Source: a virus
DNA length: 53,478 bases
IMG/VR virus record: IMGVR_UViG_3300035698_027794
Coordinates: 1-53,478 of that record
Strand: one strand, 5' to 3'
Numbering within the stretch: position 1 is the first letter of the stretch; each line of letters opens with the position of its first letter. Under the pieces are notes generated by a model. That model saw only the letters and a list, made by a program, of their open reading frames with translations. It had not been told where the DNA came from and did no database searches. The position numbers and the translations under genes were made by a program. This document shows positions 6,136-44,781 of this stretch, piece after piece.

Positions 6136-6471
6136 ATGAAGTATTTTGAAAAAGTATCTAGTTTTATAGATGCCGGCAGGTACAAAAAAATAATCACCGG
6201 GATAGCTTCATCAACTAAAGCAGTATCTGGACTTTCTGACGATCTGGCACGAGTAACTAAAAACTTCTCAACTACAACCGGAAAAACCAGACAACAGTTT
6301 CTAAAGAATCGTATTTTAGCTAAACAAGCATTGAAGGTAGAAAAAAGTAAATTATCTACTCTTCATAATGATTTCAAACACTTATCCAGAAAATACAACA
6401 TCTTAGAGGCTACTCCCGGCGATCAGGTATATCAACAAGATTTAAAATATATAAGAAGGACAATAAAATAA
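6136..6471 (+). CDS. Tagged protein MKYFEKVS, unknown
   Basis: 111 residues, basic and helical. The start is set at ATG 6136, with GGGGAA upstream, because it restores the shared N-terminus; an ATG at 6109 overlaps the promoter. The rest is rich in Ser, Thr and Lys with a coiled-coil-like centre (KQALKVEKSKLSTLHNDFKHL). First gene of the array. Its stop overlaps the next start (TAATG). Confidence 0.78.
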   Translation: MKYFEKVSSFIDAGRYKKIITGIASSTKAVSGLSDDLARVTKNFSTTTGKTRQQFLKNRILAKQALKVEKSKLSTLHNDFKHLSRKYNILEATPGDQVYQQDLKYIRRTIK

Positions 6472-6740
6472 TGAAATATTTTACAAAACAAGCAAGCAAA
6501 ATAACATCCATCGCCAGAAAGGCTGGTAAGCTTGCACTTAAAGCTGACGTTAAAGCAACCAACGCGGCAGCCCGCGCAGACGATCTATTCTCCCTGATCG
6601 GCCAAGGAATATCAAAATCGCGTAAGGGTGTTAAATATAACACGACCACAGAATACCTGTTGGCTAAACGCAAAGCAGCGCGATTAAAATCTGTAGCTTC
6701 CAAACAGAAAGAACACGCACAAAACTTTTTCGGAGTATAA
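6471..6740 (+). CDS. Tagged protein MKYFTKQA, Ala/Lys-rich
   Basis: 89 residues, strongly basic, built of Ala/Lys/Arg helices (ARKAGKLALKADVKATNAAARAD) like a histone-like or DNA-condensing protein. No defined domain is recognised. It is coupled to its neighbour by overlap. Confidence 0.78.
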   Translation: MKYFTKQASKITSIARKAGKLALKADVKATNAAARADDLFSLIGQGISKSRKGVKYNTTTEYLLAKRKAARLKSVASKQKEHAQNFFGV

Positions 6741-6744
6741 AATA

Positions 6745-7104
6745 ATGAAATACTTCACAAAACTAGCCAAATCCAAAATTACCGCAACACCAACATTTGC
6801 ATCGGTAGTCCCAAACAAAACAACCAACAAGTTTGACGTCAGTGTTATGATGAGTGTGCCGGCACATCAAGTGGGTGGAACTGGCAGACCGAGGTATTAT
6901 GGTTACAAACAAGAAAACATAACTTTGGCACAGGGGGTAGCAAAGCTCCCGAGTTTCCAGAGAAAAGCGACTAACAAGGCCACAGAAGCACGCGGAGATT
7001 CAATACGTTATGATGTGGCACAGAGGATCCAAAATACTTCTTCGTTTAGAAACATACACACGTTCGGGTTACCAGCTCCGGCTAAACGTAATAAAGGGGG
7101 ATAG
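6745..7104 (+). CDS. Tagged protein MKYFTKLA, MSVPA family
   Basis: 119 residues. The middle segment MMSVPAHQVGGTGRPRYYGY matches LMSVPARQLKGGGKGTRYYEG in the product of 14956-15264, so the two are paralogues in separate halves of the array. Outside this block they differ. Basic, with no predicted membrane helix. Function unknown. Confidence 0.78.
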   Translation: MKYFTKLAKSKITATPTFASVVPNKTTNKFDVSVMMSVPAHQVGGTGRPRYYGYKQENITLAQGVAKLPSFQRKATNKATEARGDSIRYDVAQRIQNTSSFRNIHTFGLPAPAKRNKGG

Positions 7105-7105
7105 G

Positions 7106-7477
7106 ATAAAATATTTTACAAAACAAGCAGAACAATCTAAAAAAACCTATAAAGAAGAATTAAAGGAAAACAGTCCCATAGCTACCGGCGGATCAATAGG
7201 CATGGTAGCCGGGGGCCTTGCAGGTCTTACCCCACTCAGTGTAAAACGTGTTGCCAAGGCAACAGGCAAAGTAAGTAAAATGGACAGGTACTTGGGGAAT
7301 TTATCAATCGAAAAATCCATTACTGGGTTTAATCCCGCAGTGACAGATGCTATTCGGAAATCCAAAAACAAAAAATTTATAGCTCTTGCAGCAGCCGGGT
7401 CTGTCATAGGCTCAACTATCGGCGCCATAGCGGTTAATAAAAGAAAACAAGAAAAAATACGAGAGGAATTTAAATGA
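7106..7477 (+). CDS. Tagged protein with an apparent AUA start
   Basis: 123 residues. The reading frame contains KYFTKQAEQ directly after an ATA codon at 7106, two bases past the stop of the previous gene and six bases after a GGGGG ribosome site. No ATG, GTG or TTG lies at that position, so the start seems to be AUA, most simply an ATG-to-ATA change. An ATG at 7010 in frame would add 32 residues read inside the previous gene and is unlikely. The body has two glycine-zipper membrane-like helices (IGMVAGGLAGL and AAAGSVIGSTIGAIAV). It is a paralogue of the next gene; both end in REEFK. Confidence 0.68.
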   Translation: MKYFTKQAEQSKKTYKEELKENSPIATGGSIGMVAGGLAGLTPLSVKRVAKATGKVSKMDRYLGNLSIEKSITGFNPAVTDAIRKSKNKKFIALAAAGSVIGSTIGAIAVNKRKQEKIREEFK

Positions 7478-7803
7478 AATATTTTACAAAACTAGCAGAA
7501 AAACCAAAAGACAATGATTCAGCCGCAATCGGAGCTGTTGTTGGTGGGTCTGCGGGAATGATAGCAGCGGCTAAACCTATGGTGGATAAGACATACGCTA
7601 ACGTTATTGACAAAATTAAACCTGATCAAAAAATCTTGGGAAAACTGTTGGCCAAAACAAAAGGAACTAACCCAATAAAGGCAAAGGCTCTCAGAAGATA
7701 CAAAGGTAAAAAAGGAGCTGCGCTGATAGCAGGTGGTATCGCGATTGGGGCGGGTATTGGACTAGTTTCACAAAAAAAGAAAAAGAGAGAGGAGTTTAAA
7801 TGA
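7474..7803 (+). CDS. Tagged glycine-zipper protein MKYFTKLA
   Basis: 109 residues. Two Gly/Ala-rich hydrophobic segments (AIGAVVGGSAGMIAAA and ALIAGGIAIGAGIGLV) flank a basic loop. The layout and the KREEFK end match the preceding gene, so these are tandem duplicates. Glycine zippers are common in phage proteins that insert into membranes. Coupled to both neighbours by ATGA overlaps. Confidence 0.8.
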   Translation: MKYFTKLAEKPKDNDSAAIGAVVGGSAGMIAAAKPMVDKTYANVIDKIKPDQKILGKLLAKTKGTNPIKAKALRRYKGKKGAALIAGGIAIGAGIGLVSQKKKKREEFK

Positions 7804-8024
7804 AATATTTTACAAAAACAGCTATGGGAGATAATCCATACAACATGGGTGATGAAAAAATGAATGCTTTAATTTCAGGAGAAGCAAAAAAACTTAAAAA
7901 GCTTGATTTAAAAAATTCTAGAGAAGTACTTAAGCATTATTCTGAAAATGATTGGAGCGTTGTTCCAAAAATGACTTTAACAGATAGACAGTTTTTAGTG
8001 AGGGCAGTTGGAAAAAGACTATGA
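7800..8024 (+). CDS. Tagged protein MKYFTKTA, unknown
   Basis: 74 residues, charged and helical, without hydrophobic segments (SREVLKHYSENDWSVVPKM). Overlaps both neighbours by four bases. Family not recognised. Confidence 0.75.
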   Translation: MKYFTKTAMGDNPYNMGDEKMNALISGEAKKLKKLDLKNSREVLKHYSENDWSVVPKMTLTDRQFLVRAVGKRL

Positions 8025-8680
8025 AATATTTCACAAAACTATCCTTCAATTTAAAAGATGCTAAAAAAGTAACAAAGCTTTTTAAGTCTAAACAGATTTC
8101 AAAAAATATTTCCAGTAATAATCTTTATTTAATGGATAGGATAACAGGGGGTCGGCCACTAAAGACAAACAGGTACGCTGATTTTTTATCTATGTCTAAA
8201 CCCGATCTAGCTAAGAATTTTGACCGTGCTGGTTTAAAACCTGGTCAAACGTTTTTAAATCGCCCAACCAAAATACCAGAAGATCTGGCTGTTTCTTATG
8301 CTACAGCGAGTTCAACTAAACTACCAAAATTGACTAAAAGAAAAGATAGAAAAGTTTTAAATTCTATTATCCAGGGGCATGAAATGGACGAAATTACCGC
8401 TATTCCCAAAAAAGTATTTTGGGATAGACGTGGAATGAATCATTTATCTCCGGAAGTTGTTTTAAAAGAGCATAACAAAACTACAACACTTTCAAATAAA
8501 CATATAAAGGTTAAAGAGTATATGAACACTTTAAGAAAACCAACATACGTTATTGGGGAACAAGATCTTATCCGTGAGGTTTATCCGGGGTATGAACATG
8601 GCAAATCTCAACGTATTAGTAGGCACCTTAGAAAAAAAATAACTGCAAGGTTAGAAGCTAAACACTTAGCAAAAACATAA
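8021..8680 (+). CDS. Tagged protein MKYFTKLS, unknown
   Basis: 219 residues, very basic throughout, with no membrane helix. It has segments such as GHEMDEITAIPKKVFWDRRG and ends in a basic helix (RHLRKKITARLEAKHLAK). The composition suggests nucleic-acid contact. I looked for nuclease motifs and found none I could defend. Confidence 0.76.
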   Translation: MKYFTKLSFNLKDAKKVTKLFKSKQISKNISSNNLYLMDRITGGRPLKTNRYADFLSMSKPDLAKNFDRAGLKPGQTFLNRPTKIPEDLAVSYATASSTKLPKLTKRKDRKVLNSIIQGHEMDEITAIPKKVFWDRRGMNHLSPEVVLKEHNKTTTLSNKHIKVKEYMNTLRKPTYVIGEQDLIREVYPGYEHGKSQRISRHLRKKITARLEAKHLAKT

Positions 8681-8697
8681 CAAAAAAATAAATAAAA

Positions 8698-10050
8698 ATG
8701 AAATATTTTACAAAACTAGCTAAACGCAAAAAACCTATACAGGAAGCATATGCAGAATCCAAGAAAGGTCTCGTATATGTAGCTCCTACCGGATCCGGAA
8801 AGACCCGCGTGGCACTGCGTGCTACAAAAGGTACTCCTACCACGGTTATAGGTACCGCGTCTTTACAGCAAAATTTTGATAAGGAAGAATTAAAAGCATT
8901 TAAAACCACTTCCAAAAACCGTACAAACTTCACATATGCGAAAGTATCTCGCGGGGCCGATCTACCGGGGGGTAAACACCTTGTACTCGATGAATCACAG
9001 TACATCCGCAACCCATCTTCAAAAACTCTCACTACTCTAAAGAGAGAACGTCCGGAGTATGACAAAGCACTTCTTTTGAGTGCAACCCCGATGTACAACG
9101 AACCGGCTGATATTGCTTCACAGGTAAATCTAGTGGCCGGAGCAAAAAAAGTACCTACAGGACGAGACTTCTATAAAACGTTCTATAAAGAAAAGAAAGT
9201 ATCTCCAGGACTTATAGGATCCCTTATAGGGGTCAAACCCGGAGCAAGCAGAACTTTGAAAAGTAAGAAACTTCCCAAGAAGTACATGAAGGATTATGTG
9301 TATGTGGAAGACGCTGCCAAGTTTAAAGACTTGATGCCTAAGCGAGACCATGAACAAATAAAAATTCCCATGGCTAAAGAACAAGTCCATATCTACAAAT
9401 ACCTTAGTAGAAAAGCGCCTTTGAGCGTAAGGTACAAAGTTAAACGTGATCTTCCTCCGAGCAAAACTGAGGCAAGATCAATGAATGCATTCTTAAGTGG
9501 GATGCGTCAAGCAAGCAATACCACAGCTCCTTTTGTTAAAGACAAAACTACTGCGGTATCACCAAAGATGGATCGCATGGTTTCTGATCTACAAACAGAG
9601 TTGAAAGCAGGCGGTAAAGTCCTTACCTACAGCAACTTTATCGGATCCGGAGTAACCCCGTACACCAAACGCCTGGACAAGGCCAAGATCCCATACGCCA
9701 AACTTACCGGGGAAATGAGCAAAGCAGAACGAGAGTTACAAGTAAAGAAATACAACACGAAGAACAAAACTAATGTTTTTGTTTATAGTGGGGCAGGCGC
9801 GGAAGGCCTTAACCTCCCCAAGACTACCATGGTTCAATTAATGGAACCACATTGGAACAAGGCCAAGACGACTCAGGCGGAGTCCCGGGGAATACGTCGT
9901 GGAGACGACCCAAGCAGAACTGTGGATATCAAAGAGTACATCTCGGTATTTCCACACAATAAAAGAAAGAAAACTAGCGACCAGTACTTAGCCGGTATGA
10001 GCGACCGCAAGAGAACAGAAATCGCCCATATGCTGAAGGCACTTAAATAG
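8698..10050 (+). CDS. Tagged SF2 (Snf2/DEAD-like) helicase or translocase
   Basis: 450 residues. After the MKYFTKLA tag, the helicase core follows at once: motif I APTGSGKT (about 29-36), motif II LDESQ (about 96-100), motif III LLLSATP (about 126-132), then the second RecA domain with GAGAEGLNLP (motif V) and TQAESRGIRRGD (motif VI, arginine finger). It should be an ATP-driven DNA or RNA translocase. That an enzyme carries the same octapeptide as small structural-looking proteins argues that the tag is a sorting or processing signal. Phage P1 packages an anti-restriction protein with a helicase domain (DarB), which is a possible analogue. Confidence 0.9.
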   Translation: MKYFTKLAKRKKPIQEAYAESKKGLVYVAPTGSGKTRVALRATKGTPTTVIGTASLQQNFDKEELKAFKTTSKNRTNFTYAKVSRGADLPGGKHLVLDESQYIRNPSSKTLTTLKRERPEYDKALLLSATPMYNEPADIASQVNLVAGAKKVPTGRDFYKTFYKEKKVSPGLIGSLIGVKPGASRTLKSKKLPKKYMKDYVYVEDAAKFKDLMPKRDHEQIKIPMAKEQVHIYKYLSRKAPLSVRYKVKRDLPPSKTEARSMNAFLSGMRQASNTTAPFVKDKTTAVSPKMDRMVSDLQTELKAGGKVLTYSNFIGSGVTPYTKRLDKAKIPYAKLTGEMSKAERELQVKKYNTKNKTNVFVYSGAGAEGLNLPKTTMVQLMEPHWNKAKTTQAESRGIRRGDDPSRTVDIKEYISVFPHNKRKKTSDQYLAGMSDRKRTEIAHMLKALK

Positions 10051-10057
10051 GAGTAAT

Positions 10058-10651
10058 ATGAAATATTTTACAAAAACTGCAGATTTTTATGATACCTTTT
10101 ATTGGAACAAGCCACTAAAGTCTATGAGAAGTCAAGGTTTACAAGAGAAGGATAGGGATAAATATCGTAAGACCATGATATCTGAAATAGACGCAGCTAT
10201 ATTGGAAGAAAGTAACAATACGGCTCAAAAGTTAAAAATTTGGAAAGAAGATAGAGTTTTAGAAAATGCAGGTAAGTTGGAAACAAGTGATAGATTTAGG
10301 TCTAGATTAAAATCAGGATTAAGGGATGATATAGAACATGCTGGGGCTCTTAGCCTTGTTGCTGCACCAACAGCTGCAATTTTAGCACAAATACCAAAAA
10401 AGTTAAATAAGAGTTTAGCAAAAAAACCTATTGGGCGCTTAGCAGCCCTAGCTACTGCTGGAACAATCTTAGCTACTATACCAATTTCATCAACTGTCAG
10501 AGCACTTAGAGGTAAAAAGAAAGTAGTGGCTGGAACTAAACCAGACTTGCAAAATAATTACACATATCGGTCATTAGAGCACCTTAGCGGTCAATTAAAA
10601 AATAGAGACCCAGAAGCTTTAGAAGATTGGATAACTCCGGACATCGATTAG
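10058..10651 (+). CDS. Tagged protein MKYFTKTA with two hydrophobic helices
   Basis: 197 residues. An N-terminal charged helical domain is followed by two hydrophobic segments (LSLVAAPTAAILAQI and LAALATAGTILATIPI) and a hydrophilic tail. GGAG lies five bases before the ATG. It might insert in a membrane. Family unknown. Confidence 0.77.
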   Translation: MKYFTKTADFYDTFYWNKPLKSMRSQGLQEKDRDKYRKTMISEIDAAILEESNNTAQKLKIWKEDRVLENAGKLETSDRFRSRLKSGLRDDIEHAGALSLVAAPTAAILAQIPKKLNKSLAKKPIGRLAALATAGTILATIPISSTVRALRGKKKVVAGTKPDLQNNYTYRSLEHLSGQLKNRDPEALEDWITPDID

Positions 10652-10668
10652 GTAAAAATATGAGTAAT

Positions 10669-11049
10669 ATGAAATACTTTACAAAGATAGCAAAAAAATA
10701 TAGCCACAGACAAGTTAAAAAAGAAAAAGAAAAGGCGATAGGCGAGCTGACTAGTCGTACTTTGTCCCCCCAAGACCTATCTTATCGTTTAAATAGTAGT
10801 GATCGGGATATAAAAAAATTAGTGGACAGTCATCCAAATAATAAAGCGGCCAAAGATTATTATATTGGAATTAAAACTCCTAAGACAATGAATAGTTATA
10901 ATATAGCAGATGAGGGCGGTGATGGGCACACTTATATAATCAAAGATGATAAGAATCAACATTATTATACTGATAATGATACGGTGCAGACAATAAAAAA
11001 AACTAAACATAAAACATTTAAGAGCATGTTTCCAAAAGAGGATACTTAA
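10669..11049 (+). CDS. Tagged protein MKYFTKIA, unknown
   Basis: 126 residues from ATG 10669; in-frame ATGs at 10627 and 10660 would place residues before the tag. A Lys-rich N-terminal half is followed by a segment rich in Asp, Tyr and Asn (GGDGHTYIIKDDKNQHYYTDNDT). No known domain. Confidence 0.74.
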   Translation: MKYFTKIAKKYSHRQVKKEKEKAIGELTSRTLSPQDLSYRLNSSDRDIKKLVDSHPNNKAAKDYYIGIKTPKTMNSYNIADEGGDGHTYIIKDDKNQHYYTDNDTVQTIKKTKHKTFKSMFPKEDT

Positions 11050-11050
11050 T

Positions 11051-11566
11051 ATGAAATACTTTACAAAGATAGCAAAAATAATTACCGATACACAAATAAC
11101 TTCTAAGAGGCAGAAAGGTTTAGGGTTTGAAGCAGCCGTAGGTTCCCCCGATGCGGTTGTTATACATAAACGACCTGGGAGGTCATTGGACCCAAAGAAA
11201 TATGATACTCTCGTGGATGAGCATATTTTAAGAATTGACTCAAGCGAGGTGGATAGTTTCAAAAAATTAAGGGGCCAACCTAAAGTAGATTTTTTAGCAA
11301 ATAAGCTTAAAGAGCGCGGTGGCTATGATTCAAGAATTCAATACCGGGCAAGCAAACCATTATTGTTTGGTAGGAAAAAGTTTAAAAAAGCTGCAGATAA
11401 CCCTATCAAAAAATTGACAGTAATGGCAAAAGGCCCAGGGTATACAGATCTACAAGCAACTCAAACAGCTGTTGGTGGTTTTTCTAGAACAGGTAATAGA
11501 CCTTTAAAAACTTACAATAGGTACAGGGACAACAAACATTTTAATGTTGATGGTGTGGGTAAATAA
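11051..11566 (+). CDS. Tagged protein MKYFTKIA, unknown
   Basis: 171 residues, basic. The last third (TDLQATQTAVGGFSRTGNRP and the tail RDNKHFNVDGVGK) looks like a separate module. The final 38 bases recur, out of frame, after the next gene (see 12195-12245). No family recognised. Confidence 0.75.
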   Translation: MKYFTKIAKIITDTQITSKRQKGLGFEAAVGSPDAVVIHKRPGRSLDPKKYDTLVDEHILRIDSSEVDSFKKLRGQPKVDFLANKLKERGGYDSRIQYRASKPLLFGRKKFKKAADNPIKKLTVMAKGPGYTDLQATQTAVGGFSRTGNRPLKTYNRYRDNKHFNVDGVGK

Positions 11567-11569
11567 AAA

Positions 11570-12208
11570 ATGAAATATTTTACAAAGATAGCATCTGCAG
11601 AAAGCAGAAAAAGAAAAAAACTCAGCAAAGAATACGAAAAAGCCTTAGGCTCTGGGTACTCTGGTAGGAACATTAGACCTTACTTAAGGGATTCAGGTAT
11701 CAAAGCATATTCCGCGGATGCTGCAGCAGACGTCAAGAAAATGTATGATTCTACAGAACAGTACCAGGCACTCCAAAAACCACTTATGCAAACTGCACCT
11801 GGAAGCAAAGAGGAAAAAGCATATTTGGCAAAAAATCAAACTACCTTGGACAAAGTCAGGGATGATAATTTAAAATCGCGTATAAACGCATCTAAGAAAT
11901 ATGGTGGTCCAGAATCTTCGCGAAAGACCTTTGAATTTTCATTAAAAACTAAAATGCCCACTCAGATGGTACCATCTTATATGGCAGCTAACAAGTATGT
12001 GTATAGTCGTGCATCCTATAATGGGGTAAGCAATGGGTGGTCTCCTCGAAAAGAGGGATATGATCCTGAACACTATACAAAGGTTATATACGAAACAGAC
12101 GCCGCCAAAAAATACAAAATGATTGTAAATAAATACCCTGATAGTAAAGCGTGGCTAGATTCAGAAGGAGGGGTTAACTATATTAGACGGCATCGAGCGG
12201 GACAATAA
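11570..12208 (+). CDS. Tagged protein MKYFTKIA, unknown, possibly frameshifted end
   Basis: 212 residues, basic, helical, Ser/Tyr-rich. The stop codon at 12206 falls inside DNA that would, in another frame, encode RDNKHFNIDGGG, the tail of the preceding gene. The present C-terminus RRHRAGQ may therefore result from a small frameshift. No domain recognised. Confidence 0.75.
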   Translation: MKYFTKIASAESRKRKKLSKEYEKALGSGYSGRNIRPYLRDSGIKAYSADAAADVKKMYDSTEQYQALQKPLMQTAPGSKEEKAYLAKNQTTLDKVRDDNLKSRINASKKYGGPESSRKTFEFSLKTKMPTQMVPSYMAANKYVYSRASYNGVSNGWSPRKEGYDPEHYTKVIYETDAAKKYKMIVNKYPDSKAWLDSEGGVNYIRRHRAGQ

Positions 12209-12245
12209 ACATTTTAACATTGATGGCGGAGGGCCTAAGAGATGA
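12195..12245 (+). pseudogene. Out-of-frame copy of a C-terminal tail
   Basis: This frame encodes ERDNKHFNIDGGGPKR and then TGA. It matches the RDNKHFNVDGVGK end of the 11051 gene at both DNA and protein level. It overlaps the last codons of 11570-12208 and the start of the next gene. I read it as the lost tail of a tagged paralogue or the mark of recombination between neighbours. Confidence 0.55.
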
Positions 12246-12535
12246 AGTACTTTGAAAAGATAGCAAAATGGCGGGGAAGAAAAAAGTCACTTCCTGAAAG
12301 TAAACAAATCGAATTACCCCCATTACCTGAAGAGGCTAAACGCTTTATTCTAAAGCAAAATAAAGATGCAGAGGTTGTTCGCAATAGGCTTATTTCTGGC
12401 AAGATGTCTGAGTCTGAACTGGCTCTACTAAACAAGGGTATACACAAGGCTTGGAAACAGTATAAGGCAGCAGATGATTTGATATATAAATATAAAATAG
12501 ATGATAAGTTTTGGGCAGATTTACCTGTGGATTAA
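12242..12535 (+). CDS. Tagged protein MKYFEKIA, unknown
   Basis: 97 residues, basic N-terminus (KWRGRKKSLPESKQ), then charged helices. Glu replaces Thr at tag position 5, as in the first gene of the array. Last gene of the P1 unit. Function unknown. Confidence 0.77.
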   Translation: MKYFEKIAKWRGRKKSLPESKQIELPPLPEEAKRFILKQNKDAEVVRNRLISGKMSESELALLNKGIHKAWKQYKAADDLIYKYKIDDKFWADLPVD

Positions 12536-12570
12536 ACCAAAAAATAAGTTAAAAAATTAAAAGAAAAATA

Positions 12571-12604
12571 AGGAGCAACTACGAATAGTCGCTCCTATTT
12601 TTTT
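12571..12604. terminator. Bidirectional terminator between array and RNA region
   Basis: AGGAGC-ACTA, loop CGAA, TAGT-GCTCCT, with T8 on the plus side and TATTTTTC on the minus side. One position is an A/C mismatch as plus-strand RNA but a G/U pair as minus-strand RNA, so it may serve mainly the leftward transcript. Confidence 0.85.
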
Positions 12605-13446
12605 TGATCAGGGTGAGATTACCCCTTCACGGTAGTAGACTTCGGGAAGATTATAACATATTATTTTTCTTTCCACGACCCACCAACCTCTTTCGAGACC
12701 GGTACCTACTAGAACCAACTGCTTACGGCAGTCACTCTTATCGTCAGGTCTTCTCGCTCCTCAGAATACTGTATAACCTTACGGTCACTGAACGACTAGC
12801 TTAGCCGACCAACATTCTTCCGAAACAAACTGTCACAGTTTGCGCTGCTCCAGCTCCAGGTTCGTGCAAGCACGCCCGGAATTAGGTTCCTTTCTGACAC
12901 AGACGTCACAGGTCTGATTGCTTATGTATTGATAAGTTGCAGCTAGAATTGAACTAGCGACCAACGGTTTTGAGACCATCGCTCTACCAACTGAGCTATG
13001 CAAATAATATATATCTATATTATCCAAGTTTGCGATTTAGAGACGCGCCTGTGAATGCAGGTTGCTGACTTTTGATCAGTAAATGCTACTCGCCTCTGTA
13101 CCCTCTCCTTGCGGGAGTTTGGGCCATTTAGATCGATCCCAGCCAGGTTTCCCTAAGCTAAGTCCTCACTGAATTAGTGTTTAGCACTGGATTGCGAATC
13201 CTTGCACAGAACACTCTACACTTTTCCTTTTGCCGTATTAGGCGCTGCAATTACCACTGTGACATGATAATGCTCTTTCCCTCTCCACTACAGTTTGCCA
13301 TGGTGAGTAGGATCGAACGTACTTGTGTATTTTATGGATGCCCCTCTCGGGTGCGGCTACGCAAGCCGCGTTTACACTCCGTTACCGGAATGATATCTTA
13401 CCGAGCCCATACGCCCGTGGGCTAAAAAATACCCGAAGGCTTTTCT
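12605..13446 (-). ncRNA. Gene-free structured RNA region, GOLLD/ROOL-like candidate
   Basis: About 840 bases without a credible gene and visibly richer in G+C than the flanks. A promoter-like motif lies at its right end and a terminator at its left, giving a leftward transcript of about 870 nt. Hairpins are dense: 12826-12842 (7 bp), 12863-12874, 12900-12916, 13353-13369 (6 bp) and a three-way junction at 13039-13097. The closing stem of that junction has a G/U pair on the minus strand but an A/C mismatch on the plus. GAAA tetraloop hairpins occur near 12690 and 13150. Size, phage context and an internal tRNA resemble the giant ornate RNAs GOLLD and ROOL. This assignment is inference. Confidence 0.6.
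12934..13005 (-). tRNA. tRNA-like gene, anticodon uncertain (CAA, Leu?)
   Basis: On the minus strand a canonical D arm (AGCTCAGTTGGTAGAGC) and T arm (GCTAG, TTCAATT, CTAGC) frame a 5-bp anticodon stem ATGGT/ACCGT. The acceptor stem has 7 pairs with one T/C mismatch and no encoded CCA. The anticodon loop reads CTCAAA, one base shorter than normal; after U33 the triplet is CAA. Leu tRNAs normally have a long variable arm, but this one has five bases. It may be a degenerate tRNA or a tRNA mimic embedded in the larger RNA. Confidence 0.65.
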
Positions 13447-13470
13447 TAGTAATATTCTTATACCAGAAAA
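13447..13470 (-). promoter_or_regulatory. Minus-strand promoter-like motif, diverged copy
   Basis: The minus strand reads TTTTCTGGTATAAGAATATT, the same pattern as the 2423, 3888, 6054 and 30999 copies with two changes. It faces the structured RNA region. Confidence 0.5.
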
Positions 13471-13517
13471 AATCAAAAAGTGTCACGACCCACATCACAC
13501 CTTATATTAAAAAGTTC

Positions 13518-13546
13518 TTGACAAATTTGCAATCACCGTGTATATT
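13518..13546 (+). promoter_or_regulatory. Sigma70-like promoter P2
   Basis: TTGACA (13518-13523), 17 bases, TATATT (13541-13546). It drives 13573 to 16340, the second half of the tagged array. Confidence 0.88.
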
Positions 13547-13572
13547 ATGGTATTAAGGAAAAGGTGTAAATT

Positions 13573-13776
13573 ATGCATGTGAAAAAAGAAGGTGATGAGA
13601 TACAACTGGCGTTCGAAGCGGAACTGGTTGGTATCAAGAACATTAAAAGCACACATGTGTGGAGACTAGAACTGGATATCTATGAAATGGATTCTGGTGT
13701 TGTTAAAGAATTATTTGACCTAATAAACATGCCACTAACTATTGGGGCAGTCGGTCATAAAATACAGGAGATGTAA
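13573..13776 (+). CDS. Unknown small acidic protein
   Basis: 67 residues, beta-like (EIQLAFEAELVGI), acidic and without the tag, so it differs from its neighbours. AAGGAAAAGG precedes the start. First gene after P2. Function unknown. Confidence 0.65.
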   Translation: MHVKKEGDEIQLAFEAELVGIKNIKSTHVWRLELDIYEMDSGVVKELFDLINMPLTIGAVGHKIQEM

Positions 13777-13809
13777 AAATGAAATATTTTACCAAAGAAG
13801 CAAAAAGAA
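13766..13809 (+). repeat. 44-bp direct repeat, copy 1 (ribosome site plus tag)
   Basis: The block from AGGAGATGT through the codons for MKYFTKEAKR is identical to 14272-14315. Identity stops inside the coding region, so ribosome site and tag were copied as a unit. Confidence 0.85.
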
Positions 13810-14252
13810 AATTTGTAATGCCAACAAAGGAAGAGTATGTAGATACTATGATGAATTATGAATCTGCAAAAGCAAAAGATAAAGGACTTGTCGCAAGAAA
13901 TATAGCAGGCAGTATGGCGGGCGGTGGTCTTGTTGGAGCAACTTACCTTCCAAAAGCACTTATGGAAGGTGCAAACACGGTGAAGTCGATTGCTAAACCT
14001 GTAGCTATAGGAGCAGGCGTCGGAGCAGGTCTCGGGATATTGGCAGGTTTGGCAGAAAAAAGTACTGCAAATTATAGTGTAAAAAATCCAGAAGATTATG
14101 CAAAACAACTTGGGGAAGAATACGATTCAACAGAACCATATAGAAACGCCGGAAAAGGGTTTATGCGTCCAGATCGCTCATACGGCAACATGATTTTTAA
14201 TGAGTATCGTGAGGCAAAAAGAAAAAAAAATAGAGCAGATAGACGCGGATAA
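13779..14252 (+). CDS. Tagged glycine-zipper protein MKYFTKEA
   Basis: 157 residues. A charged N-terminus is followed by two Gly/Ala hydrophobic segments (IAGSMAGGGLVGATYL and AIGAGVGAGLGILAGLA) and a polar tail ending in a basic cluster (REAKRKKNRADRR). It has the same general plan as 7474-7803 and 15269-15916. A membrane-active role is an inference from the glycine zippers. Confidence 0.78.
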   Translation: MKYFTKEAKRKFVMPTKEEYVDTMMNYESAKAKDKGLVARNIAGSMAGGGLVGATYLPKALMEGANTVKSIAKPVAIGAGVGAGLGILAGLAEKSTANYSVKNPEDYAKQLGEEYDSTEPYRNAGKGFMRPDRSYGNMIFNEYREAKRKKNRADRRG

Positions 14253-14271
14253 AACACAGCTTATAAAATAA

Positions 14272-14315
14272 AGGAGATGTAAAAATGAAATATTTTACCA
14301 AAGAAGCAAAAAGAA
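14272..14315 (+). repeat. 44-bp direct repeat, copy 2
   Basis: Identical to 13766-13809. It supplies the ribosome site and first codons of the interrupted gene below. Confidence 0.85.
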
Positions 14316-14722
14316 GAAAAGATATAGAAACCCCAACAAGACAACAGTATGCTGATTTTGCAAGAAAGTAAGTTGGTATGGTTGCCGGCGGTAAGCTTAC
14401 AGCTCGCCCAACAATGGGTACCGGTGGACTTTTAGGACCTATTGAGGCTAAGAAGTTAGTAGCTGAAAAAGGAAATGTATTAGATGCTAGAATCAACACT
14501 GGATATAATGAAATGACTCGGGAATTAGATACCAAGGCGGGAAGACACGGCGTTAGTACAGCTCTCAGAACTAATACTATTAATGCTTTTCAAGGAATGG
14601 TTGATAATATGAATGAAAGGAAAGAAGGCATGATTTATAGACAAGGGCGATCAAATCAACGAACTGTGCGTAGACATTTAGGCGCAAAAAGATATAATGC
14701 TTACTTAGAAGAAAATTCTTAA
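14285..14722 (+). pseudogene. Tagged gene MKYFTKEA interrupted by an in-frame TAA
   Basis: The frame opens at ATG 14285 with a perfect ribosome site and tag, reaches TAA at 14369 after 28 residues (FARK-stop-VGMVAGGK), and then stays open in the same frame to 14722. A separate start at ATG 14378 would give 114 residues but has no ribosome site. The simplest reading is a nonsense mutation splitting one 145-codon gene. Programmed readthrough or a sequencing error are alternatives. The distal part is basic and ends in RRHLGAKRYNAYLEENS. Confidence 0.7.
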
Positions 14723-14725
14723 AAA

Positions 14726-14959
14726 ATGAAATACTTCACTAAACTTGCGGGCACAGAACAGATCTCCTTTGAGGAACGCGGAAAAGATATTTTCCGTATA
14801 AAGACATCTACTCAACCATTTGATGGGGCCAGTCAGCCAGATCCTGAAGCAAAGTTTTACACACAGAGAACGAAGATTAGGGATTTCACTACACAGCAAG
14901 AAATTCGCAAACAGTTGAATTATTTAGAAATGACTAAGAAAAAGAGGATTATTGAATGA
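14726..14959 (+). CDS. Tagged protein MKYFTKLA, unknown
   Basis: 77 residues, polar, with no hydrophobic helix (FEERGKDIFRIKTSTQPFDG). Overlaps the next gene by four bases. Family unknown. Confidence 0.74.
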   Translation: MKYFTKLAGTEQISFEERGKDIFRIKTSTQPFDGASQPDPEAKFYTQRTKIRDFTTQQEIRKQLNYLEMTKKKRIIE

Positions 14960-15264
14960 AATATTTTACAAAACTATCAAATGCCTACTCAAATACAATC
15001 AGCAATTCGCGACCCATAACAACCCAATTCAAAAACCAAGGCAATGGGAAAGTTCAAGCAACTTCTCTTATGAGTGTGCCTGCGAGGCAGCTCAAGGGTG
15101 GGGGCAAGGGTACCAGATATTACGAGGGTGTCTCTGACAAAACCAGTGATATAGGTTTTGCTAGAGTGGATAGCCAGTCAGCAGCTAGGTATAAAATGAC
15201 AAGCAATCCTGCAGATTCTATGACCACAGCAATGGCAACAAAGAAATACAAATTAAGGAAATAA
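14956..15264 (+). CDS. Tagged protein MKYFTKLS, MSVPA family
   Basis: 102 residues, paralogue of 6745-7104 through the segment LMSVPARQLKGGGKGTRYYE. The conserved Gly and Tyr pattern (GxG followed by RYY) suggests a small binding motif. Function unknown. Confidence 0.78.
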   Translation: MKYFTKLSNAYSNTISNSRPITTQFKNQGNGKVQATSLMSVPARQLKGGGKGTRYYEGVSDKTSDIGFARVDSQSAARYKMTSNPADSMTTAMATKKYKLRK

Positions 15265-15268
15265 TTAA

Positions 15269-15916
15269 ATGAAGTATTTTACAAAAACAGCTAGTAATGT
15301 TCGTGGCTATATAATCAAAAAGACTCTTACAGGAGCCGGCGTGGGTGCTGTCGTAGGGGGTACAACTTCTGCAATAAAGAGTCGGGGCGAAAAAGGTCAG
15401 GGTAAAAAAATTCTAAAAGGAGCGTTAGTTGGTGCAGGAGCTGGAGCAGGAGTAGGCGCAGCCTACGGAACTGGTCGGGCAGTACACTCTACTAAAATGA
15501 TAAAGAGTCATAACAAACTAATTAAAGATCAGGCTGCTTCTGTTAATGTTCGAATTAATGACGTGTTTAATCAGGCTATAGGTCGAGAAACCGGACTGGC
15601 TGAGGCCGCCATAAACAAATACTACCCAAATAGAAGATTTAAAGCTAATGAAATAAAAACTAAACTCCAAAATGGATTGCTTCCACAACAAGAAGCCAGA
15701 GCTGGAGTAACGAATAATATTGCAAGCCGCATAGATAGTTTAAAACTTCGTGAGGGTGTGCATGCTAGATCAGACTTAAAAAAATTAAAAAAAACAACGG
15801 CAGATGACCTAGACTTTGTTAGTCGTATGCTACCGGGTTATGAAGTTGCTGCTAGAAAAGACGCTAAAGATATTGTTAGCACTTCACTTAAAAATGCATA
15901 CAAAAAAAGTAAATAA
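15269..15916 (+). CDS. Tagged glycine-zipper protein MKYFTKTA
   Basis: 215 residues. Two glycine-zipper segments (LTGAGVGAVVGGTTSA and LVGAGAGAGVGAAYGTG) near the N-terminus are followed by about 130 residues of charged helical domain. The N-terminal part could span or disturb a membrane. No enzyme motif is seen. Its stop overlaps the next start (TAATG). Confidence 0.8.
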   Translation: MKYFTKTASNVRGYIIKKTLTGAGVGAVVGGTTSAIKSRGEKGQGKKILKGALVGAGAGAGVGAAYGTGRAVHSTKMIKSHNKLIKDQAASVNVRINDVFNQAIGRETGLAEAAINKYYPNRRFKANEIKTKLQNGLLPQQEARAGVTNNIASRIDSLKLREGVHARSDLKKLKKTTADDLDFVSRMLPGYEVAARKDAKDIVSTSLKNAYKKSK

Positions 15917-16137
15917 TGAAAACAAGTACATTAAAAAAAATAATAACCAGATCTATGGCATCGGAGCTAAAGCTCCTGACTAAAAACATAACTAACGGCC
16001 GTGAATTATTAAAACGCTTTAATATTCATAATCCGCGTATGTCTCCCTTAAGAAAAAAACAATACAACACCATCCAAACCCAAATCTCCGATTCCATAGG
16101 CAAGATCAGATCTATAGGAAATACCTTGAACAAATGA
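15916..16137 (+). CDS. Small basic protein without the tag
   Basis: 73 residues, Lys/Arg-rich and helical, starting MKTSTLKKI. It is the only gene between 13779 and 16340 without the octapeptide. Overlaps both neighbours. Function unknown. Confidence 0.68.
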   Translation: MKTSTLKKIITRSMASELKLLTKNITNGRELLKRFNIHNPRMSPLRKKQYNTIQTQISDSIGKIRSIGNTLNK

Positions 16138-16340
16138 AATATTTCAAAAAAATATCAAATTTCGTAACAACTCCAAATACACCGAACGTAGTTGCCCCCA
16201 CCTCGGGGGCAACACTACGACCTCGAACCACTCCTAGGCCCAAACCACCTGGGACAAAAACTCTGAATTTTCAGAATCCAAAAACAAACACAAAAAACAT
16301 ACCTAAGCAGACATCTGTTAAAACTCAAAATATTAGTTGA
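16134..16340 (+). CDS. Tagged Pro/Thr-rich protein MKYFKKIS
   Basis: 68 residues, probably disordered: TPNTPNVV and RPRTTPRPKPPGTK. Lys replaces Thr at tag position 5. Last gene of the P2 unit. No fold expected beyond the tag. Confidence 0.72.
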   Translation: MKYFKKISNFVTTPNTPNVVAPTSGATLRPRTTPRPKPPGTKTLNFQNPKTNTKNIPKQTSVKTQNIS

Positions 16341-32211: not shown

Positions 32212-32385
32212 ATGTCAATCGTAGTAACGCCAAAAGACCAATACGAGCCTATTGAAAGGCTGCTTAGACGGTTTAAAAACAAAATGAAGTCTGAGAATGT
32301 ACTCGAAGATATAAAGAAACATGAAAGGTTTGAAAAACCTTCAGCAGCCAAAAGACGGAAGTCAATCGAAGCAAAAAGAAAATGA
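32212..32385 (+). CDS. rpsU: Ribosomal protein bS21
   Basis: 57 residues, MSIVVTPKDQYEPIERLLRR then FKNKMKSENVLEDIKKHE, FEKPSAAKRRK and a basic tail. The EPIERxLRRFK and EKPSxxKRRK signatures and full length match bacterial bS21, which sits near the anti-Shine-Dalgarno end of 16S rRNA. Its TGA overlaps the terminase ATG, so it is made with the packaging genes. Environmental phages are known to carry bS21. It may compete into host ribosomes to favour phage mRNAs. Confidence 0.93.
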   Translation: MSIVVTPKDQYEPIERLLRRFKNKMKSENVLEDIKKHERFEKPSAAKRRKSIEAKRK

Positions 32386-35300
32386 AAATAACTAGATCCA
32401 TGTTAGTGGAAAGCATGTTTTATTTAAATAACAGGCCATTTTCATTAGATGACTACAAACACATGCGTCCTATATATGATAGTGAGCATACTAGTATAGT
32501 TCTACAAACGAGTAGACAAGTCTCGAAATGTGGTTTAAGTTCAAAAAAAATAACTACTTATGATGGTACAGTAAAAACACTCGGAACATTGGTCCCGGGA
32601 GACAAAATACTATCTTTTAATGAAGAAACTCAAAAAGTGGTATTAAATAAAGTAAAAGCAGTAGAAGACAACGGATTACAAACTGTATTTTTTATAAAAA
32701 CAAGAACTGGGAGAGAAGCCCCAGTTACAGGTGAACACCCTTTTTGGACGTTAGCCCCTTGTTGGACAATGGCCAAGAATCTAAAAATCGGAGATTTTGT
32801 AGGTTTATCAAAAGATAATAGTGTCCCGGAAAACAACAATAGACTAGTAGTTCCCAAGAAGGCCTTGCAACCCTATTTAAATAAATTAAAAAGTCATAAT
32901 GGTTGTGGAAGAAATTCTAACATTAATTTATTTAAAGAAGGTTTGGCTTGGTCCTTATCGTACAACATTACTTATACTAAATTAAGTAGATTAAATAAAT
33001 TAATAAAAGACGAATATTTACAAACAATTTTAGATGCAGATATTATTTATGATAGAATAGTCTCTATAGAAAAAAAAGAATCACAAGCAACAACTTCTGT
33101 TGAAATGGAATCTCCAAACAATACTTTTTTAATAGATGGTCTAGTAACACACAACAGTACAACACTTGCTAACATGATGTTAGCCAACGGGGTGCTACAT
33201 CCGGGGTTTAGAACGCTGTATGTATCACCAACTGTAGATCAGACCAAGATATTTTCAGCCGACAGGGTAGCCACAGTAATGGACCAGTCTCCATACATTA
33301 AACAACATTTGACGTCTAACGCAATGCCACAGAATGTATTTACTAAAAATCTCACTAACGGATCTAAGATGTATTTAAGGTATGCTTTACTCAGTGCTGA
33401 TAGGTTGAGGGGTATTTCTGCGGACGCCAATTATTTTGATGAGTGTTATACAGAAGGTACCGAAGTATTGACCGATCAGGGGTGGGAAGACTTTCGAGGT
33501 ATAACAGAGAACGATCTTAAGAAGTACCAATTTGCAACTATAGACAAAGAGGGTGCTTTAGTATATCAACACGCTTCCAGGTTAATAAATAAGAAGTATG
33601 TCGGAGATATAGTAAGGTTCACGCACAGAAGTTTCAAACTTGGGGTTACTCCTGGGCACAATATGCGCGTATCACAAGAACTTAAAACTGGTTATTACAA
33701 AAATCCTAAAGTAAAAGGTTGGAATCTTATTCCCGCAGAACAAGTCTTAAACAAGAATTTTAAGATGTATTCTGCAGGAACATACGCCGGTGTTGTGACC
33801 GACAAGTTCAAATTACCGGGTTATTTTGCAAATACCAATTGCCTTGGAAATACATACCAAAACGGGAAAGTGTATGTAGAGCCAGTTGAATTTGATATAG
33901 AACCCTTTATGAAATTTATGGGGTGGTATTTATCCGAAGGTTGGACATCTAACTCATCCAACGCCATTATAGTTGGTCAAAAACCAGGTTCAAATTTAGA
34001 CGAGATACAAGATTGTTATGACAAACTATTTCCGGGAAAATGTTCCAGAACTCTTAATAAACAAAGTGGTGTTATTAATGTCATTACCCATAATCGAAAT
34101 TTACATGATTATTTGAGAAACCTTGGTAAATCCCACGACAAATACATACCAAGGGAATTTTTAGAAAACATAGATTATTTACCCGATTTACTGGACTCTC
34201 TGTACAAGGGAGATGCTATGAGGCATACTGGGGAAATGTGGGGCGACTTAAACACTGCATCTAAAAAACTAGCGGATACCACACAAATAGCCTGGATGCA
34301 CTTAAATACAAAAGCCACGATCAGGCAAATCACTGAAAAAAACGGAACTGTAATGTATCGTATAAGGCCACAGGCCCTGAATTATCAAATTTTTTGGAAT
34401 GCCCAAAAAAGAATTAAAAAAGAAGCTTATAGCGGTAAGGTTTTTTGCGTAACTGTACCAAACTCTACATTAATAGTCCGAGACAGCGTAGAAAAAACTG
34501 CAGTCGTTTGTGGAAATTGTCAGGATTTACTACCGGACATCATCCCTGTTATCCAGGAAACCATGTCCAGATCCATGTTTAAGTTGAATATGTATTCAGG
34601 GACTCCAAAAACATCTACAACCACCTTAGCCAAATTATGGAGACGCTCTACTAAAAATGAATGGATGTCAAAGTGTACTCATTGCAATAGATGGAACTAC
34701 TTAGACGATAAAAATATTGGACCCGTGGGGGTCATTTGCCGTTTCTGCGGTAAACCTCTAGACACTTCTCAAGGCTGTTGGGTAACTACTGGTGATGGTG
34801 CAGCAATACATCAAGGATTTAGAATTAGTATTTTAATGTTTGCAAACGCACCTTGGGTAGATTGGAAACGTGATATTATTGATTATAGGGAATCACACTC
34901 TGAAGCAGTATTTTTTAATGAAAAACTTGGATTAGAATATGACTCCGGGGCAAAACCTATAACGATAGATGAAATTCGAGCATGTTGTACTGGTGGACCA
35001 ATGTTAAGTAATCCTACACCGGTAATAGCATCGAAGCCGACATATCTTGGTGTGGATTATGGGCCTACTAACTCTAAAAAGTCAAACACGATGGTGGTAG
35101 TTTTGCAGAATGAAGGTGCTAAAATAAAAGTTGTTTATGCTAAAAAATATATTGGCCCGGAAGCCGACTATTCTTTTATCCACGAAGATATTCCAAAGCA
35201 GTTTAAAAAATGGGGATCTGTATTAATAGGGGCTGATCACGGAATGGGCGAAGCACCTAATGCTGAGATACGTAAACGTTTGGGTTTTGCAAAGATTATA

Positions 35301-35609
35301 GCTTTTCAACATGTACCAAACCAAAAAGAAAGATGTAATTGGAATAATAAGATTCCAGCATTTACCTTAAATAGAACAGAAGTGATGGGAGAATACTTCC
35401 AAAGAATAAAACATAAACAAATTATTTTTCCTAGATGGGAAGACTTTGAGCCATTTGCGATGGAGATTATGAATACGAATACTGAATATGATGAGGAACG
35501 AGGAAAGGTCAGATATACTAACTTCGACCCAGATGACTTTTTGCAAGCTTTGATCTATGGATGCGAGGTTGCGGTGGGTCATAAAAACGTAGCTTCTAAT
35601 ATTTATTAA
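32382..35609 (+). CDS. terL: Terminase large subunit interrupted by two inteins
   Basis: 1075 residues, of which about 508 remain after splicing. Exteins: residues 1-49 end with SRQVSK, half of Walker A, completed by STTLA after intein 1. Then comes YFDE, Walker B, completed as FDECQD after intein 2. A zinc-ribbon-like CxxC pair follows (CTHCNRW, CRFCGK), then an RNase H-like nuclease with LGVDYGP, ADHGMG and DPDDFLQAL. It packages DNA by ATP-driven translocation and cuts at the end. Both inteins sit in ATPase motifs, so splicing must be complete for function. Confidence 0.94.
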   Translation: MKITRSMLVESMFYLNNRPFSLDDYKHMRPIYDSEHTSIVLQTSRQVSKCGLSSKKITTYDGTVKTLGTLVPGDKILSFNEETQKVVLNKVKAVEDNGLQTVFFIKTRTGREAPVTGEHPFWTLAPCWTMAKNLKIGDFVGLSKDNSVPENNNRLVVPKKALQPYLNKLKSHNGCGRNSNINLFKEGLAWSLSYNITYTKLSRLNKLIKDEYLQTILDADIIYDRIVSIEKKESQATTSVEMESPNNTFLIDGLVTHNSTTLANMMLANGVLHPGFRTLYVSPTVDQTKIFSADRVATVMDQSPYIKQHLTSNAMPQNVFTKNLTNGSKMYLRYALLSADRLRGISADANYFDECYTEGTEVLTDQGWEDFRGITENDLKKYQFATIDKEGALVYQHASRLINKKYVGDIVRFTHRSFKLGVTPGHNMRVSQELKTGYYKNPKVKGWNLIPAEQVLNKNFKMYSAGTYAGVVTDKFKLPGYFANTNCLGNTYQNGKVYVEPVEFDIEPFMKFMGWYLSEGWTSNSSNAIIVGQKPGSNLDEIQDCYDKLFPGKCSRTLNKQSGVINVITHNRNLHDYLRNLGKSHDKYIPREFLENIDYLPDLLDSLYKGDAMRHTGEMWGDLNTASKKLADTTQIAWMHLNTKATIRQITEKNGTVMYRIRPQALNYQIFWNAQKRIKKEAYSGKVFCVTVPNSTLIVRDSVEKTAVVCGNCQDLLPDIIPVIQETMSRSMFKLNMYSGTPKTSTTTLAKLWRRSTKNEWMSKCTHCNRWNYLDDKNIGPVGVICRFCGKPLDTSQGCWVTTGDGAAIHQGFRISILMFANAPWVDWKRDIIDYRESHSEAVFFNEKLGLEYDSGAKPITIDEIRACCTGGPMLSNPTPVIASKPTYLGVDYGPTNSKKSNTMVVVLQNEGAKIKVVYAKKYIGPEADYSFIHEDIPKQFKKWGSVLIGADHGMGEAPNAEIRKRLGFAKIIAFQHVPNQKERCNWNNKIPAFTLNRTEVMGEYFQRIKHKQIIFPRWEDFEPFAMEIMNTNTEYDEERGKVRYTNFDPDDFLQALIYGCEVAVGHKNVASNIY
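32529..33155 (+). other. Intein 1 in terminase (mini-intein)
   Basis: 209 residues from Cys (CGLSSKKITTYDG) to VTHN, followed by Ser. Block A, block B (TGEHPFW) and the C-terminal splice His-Asn are present. No LAGLIDADG endonuclease domain is seen, so it should splice but not home. Confidence 0.88.
33444..34517 (+). other. Intein 2 in terminase with endonuclease domain
   Basis: 358 residues from Cys (CYTEGTEVLTDQGW) to VVCGN, followed by Cys. LAGLIDADG-type motifs are FMGWYLSEGW and LLDSLYKGDA. The residue before the terminal Asn is Gly instead of the usual His, a known but uncommon variant that may slow Asn cyclisation. Confidence 0.88.
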
Positions 35610-35617
35610 AATAGTTC

Positions 35618-35646
35618 TTGACAAAATTCCAATTATGCACTATATT
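35618..35646 (+). promoter_or_regulatory. Sigma70-like promoter P6
   Basis: TTGACA (35618-35623), 17 bases, TATATT (35641-35646). It drives the head genes to the terminator at 44187. Confidence 0.88.
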
Positions 35647-35666
35647 ATGTTAAAGTTGGGGAAACT

Positions 35667-37067: not shown

Positions 37068-40000
37068 ATGTATAAACGATTAGAATTTTACCCGCAAGAC
37101 AGAAATGGTGTTGACGTAGAGTTAATACATCCCGGTGTTTTGGAAAAAACTGCTGGAATGTCTGACGATTTGTCAAAATTTATTGGTGGATTAACTATTA
37201 AAGATTCGAAGATTTATATTCTTGTTAACGCTCTAGGAGCAGGTGAATACTACGGGTGTTTCTTTAAAGACCAAAAAGTTATAACAAAAGACGGCCCCAA
37301 AAATATTCAAGATATTAAAGTTAATGATTTAGTATTAACACATAAGAAACGATTCAGACCGGTTACTGAGACATTTGAAAAAGATTATGATGGAAACAAG
37401 GTAAGTTTAAATATACAAAATATGCCTGAACCTCAAGAATCCACAGAAAATCATCCGTTCTGGGTAGTATCCAAAGCACAAGTTGCAGAAGCAAAAAAAG
37501 ATAGTAAAGATCGAACAGAATTTATAGAGAACTTAAGTAAGATAGAACCTTCCTTTGTTAAGGCTGGTAAGATAATCCCAGGAGATTATGTTTTAAATCC
37601 CTATGTACAAAAGATTGAAGAAGCAGAACAGTTATCAGATGACATGGCATATTTATATGGCTATTATTTATCTGAGGGATGTTTGGCCAAAAGCTACAAT
37701 AAAGCAAGAAAAAGTCCTAGAGAATTTGTAAATATTATATTTGTTATGAATATCAATGGTGACATACCAATGATTGAGAAATTGGAAGAGGTCACAAAAA
37801 ATAATTCTCATATCCTGGGGATGTTTGAGTCCCCTTCTTCGGAACAGGCTTGTAGGTTAGAAGTGGGTTGGAAAGAAAAAGCTCAGGAGTTAAATAAACT
37901 TTTTGGGCATCATTCTAGAGATAAGTTTATCCATCCAGTTATCTTTAATCAAACTACTGAATGGAAACTTAAATTTTTAGCGGCTTATTTAGATGGGGAT
38001 GGGCATCTTACAACTAATGCTAACAATCCAAGATACGAAAATACTATTAAATTTAGTACAGTGTCCAGAACACTGGCACTTGATTTACAAAGACTTTTGG
38101 CAAGTGTTGGAGTTATTTCTGCAGTGTCTCTTGGTGCCAATAGACATAAAGATGGTTGTTTTGGAACAAAAGATCATAAAATTTATGAAGCCAGTATAGG
38201 ATCTTGTTACACAAGCGAACTTTTAAAACATACTTTGAGATTAAAACCAAAAAAAGAAATTGAACGTACTGCTAGAAATGGCGGCTTTTATATACTTAGT
38301 AATGGGTATATGCTTATGAAAGTAAAAAAGGTTTTACAAGAAGAAACTGAAGAGAAAATTCACAATTTAGAGGTAGCTGACGACAACACCTATGTAACTG
38401 ATTTTACTGGACATAACTCAAATTTGAATGGGGATTTCATAGCCGAACCAGTACTCCATAAATATCACAAAGATTTTGAAAGAAATGGTCGTGTATTCAA
38501 ACATCACAAAAACAAAGATCCATTGCAAGCTCTAGGTAAAATTTTATTTAGTAATTACAACGATGATATGCATAGAGTAGAATTAGTTTGTGAAATAAAT
38601 AAAAACAAAGATGAAGATTTTGTTCAAATGATAGAAAGTGGGGAACATCCAGCAGTTTCTATGGGGATGAGAACGCCATATGATGAATGCTTAGCCGCAG
38701 AAACTAGAATTATAACGTCTGACGGCTACAAACTTTTGAAAGATGTTGTGCCAGGTGATAAAGTTTTTACTCATACTGGAGAATCAAAACAGGTAGTTAA
38801 CACAAAAAATAGAAAAGTTTCTTCTCATGTTAGTATTAAAGTTTTAGGAGATATAGTACCCATTAGGGGCTCCGAAGACCACTTAATGCAAGTGGTAGAT
38901 AAATCTAATTTTCTTACAAAAACAGGAAGTGTTGTTAGAAAAAATAATTTAAAAAATGATGAACCTGTATTAGAGTGGAAATCTTTAAAAGATTGTAAAA
39001 AAGGGGATTATTTTGTTTTTAGGCAAACAAAAAAAGATTTAGATTTTCTATCTTTGCCAATGACAACTATTTTAGGCTATTTTATATCTGAAGGATCCTA
39101 TGTAAAACAAAAGAGAACTGATGGAACTTATTCTTATCAAGGTATTTCTTTTTGTTTTAATATTAATGAATTAGATACCCATGTTGAAGAACTAATTTTG
39201 GCTCTTAAAGCAGAATACCCAGAAAAAGATTCAAAAGTGTATTTAAATGAAAACAGACATTCTGCATCTTTGGTGTTTAGGGACAAAGGGTTAGTAGCTA
39301 AGCTTCAAGAGTTTGCCGGGGAATACTCTAAAAATAAATTTATTAATACTAAAATATTTAGTCTAAGGGAAGAACTTTTGTTAAATCTTTTAGGAAAATT
39401 AATTAATGGTGATGGATCACAGGACCATAATTTGAAAAAAGGGGATATTAGATATAGTACTGTTTCACAAGATTTGGCTTATGGTGTACGTAGACTTGCG
39501 TTAGAACTTGGTATTCCTGCTTCTGTTAATAAACAAAAAGTCTTGTCTGGGTATTCACCGGGTACTTATTGTTATACCACGTATATACCCGCCAGCGCTT
39601 CAAAACAAATAGCTCCATTTTCTTCGAAAGTAATCGGGTATGATAAAGGGACTAGTTCACAAATATTTAATTTCAAAGGATATTCCCTTATCCCAATAAA
39701 ATTTGTAGAAAAAATACAAGAATCTCTAACTGTTTATAATTTGCAAGTAGATACAGATGAGTCTTATCAAGCTAATGATTATGTTTCGCACAATTGTTCT
39801 ATTTGTGGTCATAAATCAAAAAACCTTTCTCAATACTGCGATCACCTGAGATATAGCATGAACAGTGTAATGCCGGACGGTAGAAAAGTATACGCAATTA
39901 ATCCAGAAGCTAAATTTTTTGATATTAGTTTTGTACGTATACCCGCGGACAGAACCGCAGGGGTAATGAAAAAAGTTGCTTCTGAAACAAGTAAGCCGGA

Positions 40001-44619: not shown

Positions 44620-44781
44620 ATGAAATATTTTACAAAAGAAGCAATTTTTGGAATTCCAAAAGATGATGTTCAAAGAGTGATGACTCATTATGGAGTATCA
44701 CAAGAAGAAGCCATAGCTAAAATTAAGAAAGAAGGGATTGAAAAGTTATTACCACAAAGAGGCAGTAACAGGAGATACTAA
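44620..44781 (+). CDS. Tagged protein MKYFTKEA in the head region
   Basis: 53 residues. The tag is followed by a short charged body (IPKDDVQRVMTHYGVSQEEA, then IAKIKKEGIEKLLPQRGS). It is 28 kb away from the array, next to head-completion genes, which links the tag to virion assembly. The stop overlaps the next start (TAATG). The body looks like a small UBA- or ribbon-like helical unit, but this is only an impression. Confidence 0.78.
   Translation: MKYFTKEAIFGIPKDDVQRVMTHYGVSQEEAIAKIKKEGIEKLLPQRGSNRRY

Follow-up and report, generated by a model that had tools for sequence, protein, structure and literature searches.

The window, that is, the whole stretch of DNA analysed (53,478 bases, the complete IMG/VR virus record IMGVR_UViG_3300035698_027794), encodes a major head protein, a terminase large subunit and a tail sheath (PHROGs matches), which places the RNA described here in a phage or prophage. 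Positions 12,571–13,470 had been put forward in a preliminary description as a gene-free interval of raised G+C content, and both properties hold: G+C is 45.7% at 12,597–13,470 vs 36.2% and 38.4% in the flanks, and the orfs within the interval are ≤82 aa and have no significant match in PHROGs or Pfam, so that a protein-coding interval was rejected. The adjoining genes are read rightward, and the RNA lies on the opposite strand. Searches of IMG/VR with the head protein and with a neighbouring orf gave no relatives of the window phage, and among the matches listed in a DNA similarity search against phage records the tRNA part of the interval was the only part covered.

The check that had been suggested, a scan with the Rfam covariance models for GOLLD and ROOL, was run using an E-value threshold (cmscan). 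On the minus strand, 12,610–13,098 matches the GOLLD model RF02032 from end to end (model positions 1–416 of 416; 149.5 bits, E 1.5e-41), in agreement with the leftward orientation proposed for a functional RNA, and a three-way junction described at 13,039–13,097 proves to be the first stem of the GOLLD model. The Rfam gathering cut-off for RF02032, a curation threshold rather than a biological feature, is 150 bits, and because the score falls 0.5 bit short of it, a default-mode Rfam scan misses this GOLLD and reports the tRNA alone; divergent GOLLDs can drop just beneath the default cut-off. Full-length RF02032 matches in five other records score 136–141 bits. Of 98 consensus pairs, 87 are standard in the window, eight are non-standard and three are gapped, and since 44 have changed on both sides yet remain paired, the RF02032 structure is real in this sequence. 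The last 300 bases share ~41–50% identity with each of the other GOLLDs compared, indicating a divergent branch. We regard membership of the GOLLD family as close to certain, and the window RNA adds a divergent member to this known family. From the label ‘GOLLD/ROOL-like’ only the first name survives, the model covering the 3′ half of the RNA: a ROOL, or an unrelated structured RNA, would share with GOLLD at most the general character of a large phage RNA often close to tRNAs and has a negligible chance of being correct given the strength and full length of the GOLLD match, and ROOL, with no model match at E values up to 10, was rejected.

GOLLD RNAs have a less conserved 5′ domain of ~400 nt upstream of the conserved region. 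In the window the 3′ domain, including a variable linker (12,610–13,098, minus strand; defined by the RF02032 match and pair count), is preceded by a putative 5′ domain (13,099–13,470, minus strand; 372 nt), corresponding to the cap half in the env-38 cryo-EM structure. Sequence comparison and alignment of this half with other GOLLD 5′ regions gave no convincing similarity, with the possible exception of a common CGCAAG hairpin adjoining the 3′ domain, and its putative assignment to GOLLD is by position, length, folding and the known architecture of the family, not by sequence. The interval is structured, as had been claimed, with minus-strand folding z-scores of −3.9 for the whole RNA and −3.4 for the 5′ part. 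As the plus strand reaches −3.6, folding energy barely separates the strands, and strand assignment rests on the covariance-model match.

The interval had also been described as bounded by a terminator and a promoter-like motif. The former is clear: an intrinsic terminator (12,596–12,571, minus strand; 11-bp stem, UUCG loop, U-rich tail) starts 13 bases past the end of the GOLLD match, and its hairpin contains a G-U pair on the minus strand that becomes an A/C mismatch on the plus, as noted previously for the helix at 12,577/12,590. The promoter is uncertain. An extended −10-like sequence, TGGTATAAG (13,457–13,465, minus strand), read by eye, is a possible weak GOLLD promoter; it lacks a good −35 and is absent from the output of a promoter scan. 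That scan gave a weak sigma-70-like alternative (9/12; 13,570–13,542, minus strand), which overlaps the best nearby promoter (11/12; 13,518–13,546), itself facing rightward to the gene at 13,573. The start of the RNA is accordingly uncertain, and the predicted transcript would be about 870–960 nt. Judged by its sequence and setting, the RNA is a GOLLD of a tailed phage, with predicted leftward transcription.

A tRNA-like element had been reported in the interval, and one is indeed present in the GOLLD linker at 12,934–13,005 (minus strand), identified with RF00005 (51.1 bits), ARAGORN and a further model (R1; 51.7 bits), but it lacks the appearance of a functional tRNA gene. Its D, anticodon and T arms (all three stems intact), TTC T-loop and cloverleaf score are those of an ordinary tRNA (RF00005), whereas the anticodon loop, CUCAAA, has six bases on its intact stem instead of seven with a readable anticodon (ARAGORN reports the two-base anticodon ‘(ca)’), the acceptor has a U2-C71 mismatch and hence fewer than seven pairs, no CCA is encoded (although CCA may be added post-transcription) and the element is embedded within a larger RNA. 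It is probably neither chargeable nor decoding. An A/U-rich 9-bp hairpin predicted by folding (13,003–13,024, minus strand) lies directly upstream and overlaps the first bases of the element, with no obvious counterpart among the other linkers listed. The element is the sole tRNA detected by ARAGORN in the 53 kb window, whereas most of the GOLLD relatives compared here are flanked by tRNA arrays. Taken as a whole, the window RNA resembles GOLLD RF02032 in its full 416-position 3′ domain, linker position, phage genome, linker tRNA and a terminator shortly past the 3′ motif, and differs in having a 5′ half without sequence relatives, no tRNA array, a six-base anticodon loop and the extra A/U hairpin.

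A pattern scan of IMG/VR for the GOLLD 3′ motif returned 69 stretches. Besides the window, 41/49 records searched gave a GOLLD match, compared with 0/14 control genomes, and a second set added six further virus records, Xanthomonas phages X1 (one copy) and XacN1 (two copies) and one Crocinitomicaceae genome, bringing the total to 50/70 other records with RF02032 matches. In the public genomes of X1 (L147) and XacN1 (L148) no GOLLD annotation is present in the stretches listed; public phage genomes contain unannotated GOLLD copies. The two XacN1 copies, at 38,570 and 357,365, have equal scores and perhaps belong to a terminal repeat. In the Crocinitomicaceae metagenome-assembled genome, a contig in a bacterial genome bin carries two GOLLDs ~1 kb apart (L158/L159), both with linker tRNA-like elements. 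Many relatives have a tRNA-like element at the equivalent linker site, with varying anticodons, while others (L072–L075, L009, L100 and XacN1) have no recognisable linker tRNA, so that the tRNA-like part is not needed for the basic function of GOLLD.

Alignment to a tRNA model derived from 37 array tRNAs allowed 27 linker elements (the permuted element described below and antisense chance hits being excluded) to be set against the 184 array tRNAs of 28 GOLLD loci. The three arms are as intact in the linkers as in the arrays: ≥4/5 anticodon stem pairs are formed in 27/27 linkers vs 173/184 array tRNAs, ≥4/5 T stem pairs in 27/27 vs 183/184 and ≥3/4 D stem pairs in 26/27 vs 176/184. The acceptor end is not. 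Pairs 1-72 to 7-66 are formed in fractions of 0.56, 0.33, 0.44, 0.89, 0.96, 0.78 and 1.0 of linkers (array tRNAs, 0.88–0.99), pairs 2-71 and 3-70 are both formed in only 5/27 linkers (array, 176/184), and CCA is encoded in 0/27 linkers vs 172/184 array tRNAs. Random bases pair standardly in ~6/16 cases, which puts the outer three linker pairs near chance. The nearest relative is another linker for 23/27 elements, the window element being among the four exceptions, which suggests that a linker element is in most cases passed on together with GOLLD and not captured anew.

In 26 linkers taken together, standard pairs fill 95.3% of pair cells and there are 150 double changes, and between neighbouring linkers changed pairs of the D, anticodon and T stems comprise 65 double-compensated, 14 kept by G-U and three broken, compared with four kept and 14 broken for changed acceptor pairs 1–3; as the linkers are related and the alignment was fitted to tRNA structure, these counts lean towards structure and p-values overstate independence. 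Fitting does not, however, cause the contrast between stems of one alignment. With the arms kept, changes compensated and the acceptor end and CCA lost, the linker elements have the look of a tRNA mimic that is under selection and cannot be charged, and the comparison suggests that retention of the tRNA fold with loss of the charging end is typical of the elements examined. The alternative that best survives, although we consider it unlikely, is that they are decaying, functionless tRNA pseudogenes captured from the arrays. This would fit with the linker being less conserved than the rest of the 3′ region, with the GOLLDs that have no tRNA and with the window element, which resembles ordinary tRNAs more closely than it does other linkers. 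Neutral decay should, however, erode the D, anticodon and T stems like the acceptor end, and instead these stems are as sound as in array tRNAs and their changes are overwhelmingly compensated.

For the window element itself, the six-base loop could reflect a mistake of assembly or sequencing at a stretch of four A, the true loop being normal. The sequence comes from a single metagenome contig with no near relative found, and the place of the missing base is a short homopolymer. We think this rather improbable, since six-base anticodon loops occur in three other GOLLD linkers (4/27 including the window, vs 1/184 array tRNAs), and the acceptor mismatch and absence of CCA are independent of that base.

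Still less probable is a working phage tRNA released from the linker by RNase P and RNase Z, which would split GOLLD into 5′ and 3′ parts. Good tRNA covariance scores and the presence of U33 in 23/23 seven-base linker loops are what such a tRNA would have, and the solved structure shows the 5′ and 3′ regions as distinct domains (PMC12286853), but the six-base loop in the window, the near-chance outer acceptor pairs and the uniform lack of CCA in the linkers all argue against it. In a mycobacterial GOLLD, moreover, an internal pseudo-tRNA was judged non-functional and no separate tRNA transcript was detected, according to the passages available from that report (PMC6582537), in which a family-wide comparison of pseudo-tRNAs was not found. 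On the same passages, that element and the one in the window are both tRNA-like, within GOLLD and non-functional in appearance, in different lineages.

A rise in expression with lytic growth counts among the characteristics of GOLLD, and its cage structure has been solved, but to our knowledge it has no known function. By cryo-EM, GOLLD env-38 self-assembles into a 14-mer cage in which the 5′ half forms the cap and the 3′ half the ring, as separate domains, with an unresolved linker of ~42 nt (497–538) inside; tRNAs are mentioned in some GOLLD linkers and a ribosome pull-down is cited (PMC12286853, 2025). In the window RNA, the arrangement of the 3′ domain and the place of the linker match those of env-38 (PMC12286853), while the linker contains a tRNA-like domain. 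By analogy, it would most likely self-assemble into a hollow multimer with its 5′ half as cap and its 3′ half as ring, and the tRNA-shaped domain, between the first stem and the remainder of the 3′ half, would sit inside the cage. Because the acceptor stem is incomplete and CCA is not encoded, this domain, in the window and in most relatives, is not expected to be excised by RNase P/Z, CCA-ended or charged. It may instead stay in the RNA as a dock for a partner, be it the ribosome, an elongation factor, a synthetase or a tRNA nuclease, within or at the cage in the course of infection. We consider it reasonably probable that both parts of this reading are correct, i.e. that the window RNA is a GOLLD and that its linker element is a tRNA mimic. 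Should the linker tRNAs prove to be a conserved mimic that cannot be charged, the next question would be which tRNA-binding molecule is held, and the family-wide linker pattern to which the window GOLLD led raises its interest.

In one lineage the GOLLD linker contains a circularly permuted tRNA-like element (L091/L092, at the same places as L066/L015; ~4,770–4,880 in L015). Its order is T arm, acceptor 3′ strand, ACCA, short spacer, acceptor 5′ strand, D arm and anticodon arm (loop AUCUUGA), so that the loop joining the two acceptor strands contains CCA. Folded alone, the element gives the expected T, acceptor and D stems together with a variant anticodon arm, with an energy not unusual compared with shuffled sequences (z = −0.7). 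The two contigs agree at every base for at least 3.6 kb and thus represent one phage in two assemblies rather than two cases, and a search for further permuted linkers with a pattern derived from this one returned only the same phage in the two assemblies. Among the few papers found on phage permuted tRNAs, titles and abstracts reported none. A broader proposal, which we advance tentatively and would not yet call probable, is that the linker element is a selected mimic across the family, with ~4 acceptor pairs and no CCA, caged to bind a partner, while the permuted tRNA of this lineage is tethered by its variable loop, with an acceptor that could mature without cutting GOLLD.

Several other features of the window were noted, all on the plus strand. 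Nineteen orfs (6,136–16,340 and 44,620–44,781) start with MKYF, nearly all with MKYFTK, and are otherwise unrelated in appearance, one being helicase-like; the shared N-terminal tag is reminiscent of the sequences that target internal head proteins of T4 to the capsid. One MKYFTK orf ends after 28 codons with a 114-aa orf directly behind it (14,285–14,722), probably a broken gene. In the stretches 32,382–35,609 and 37,068–41,183, intein-like insertions were noted in the large subunit of the terminase (Pfam intein splicing domain) and, through PHROGs matches, in another large orf. Promoter-like stretches at 13,505–13,552 and 35,604–35,652 (AGTTCTTGACAAA...TATATTATG) are 80% alike and each precedes a gene.
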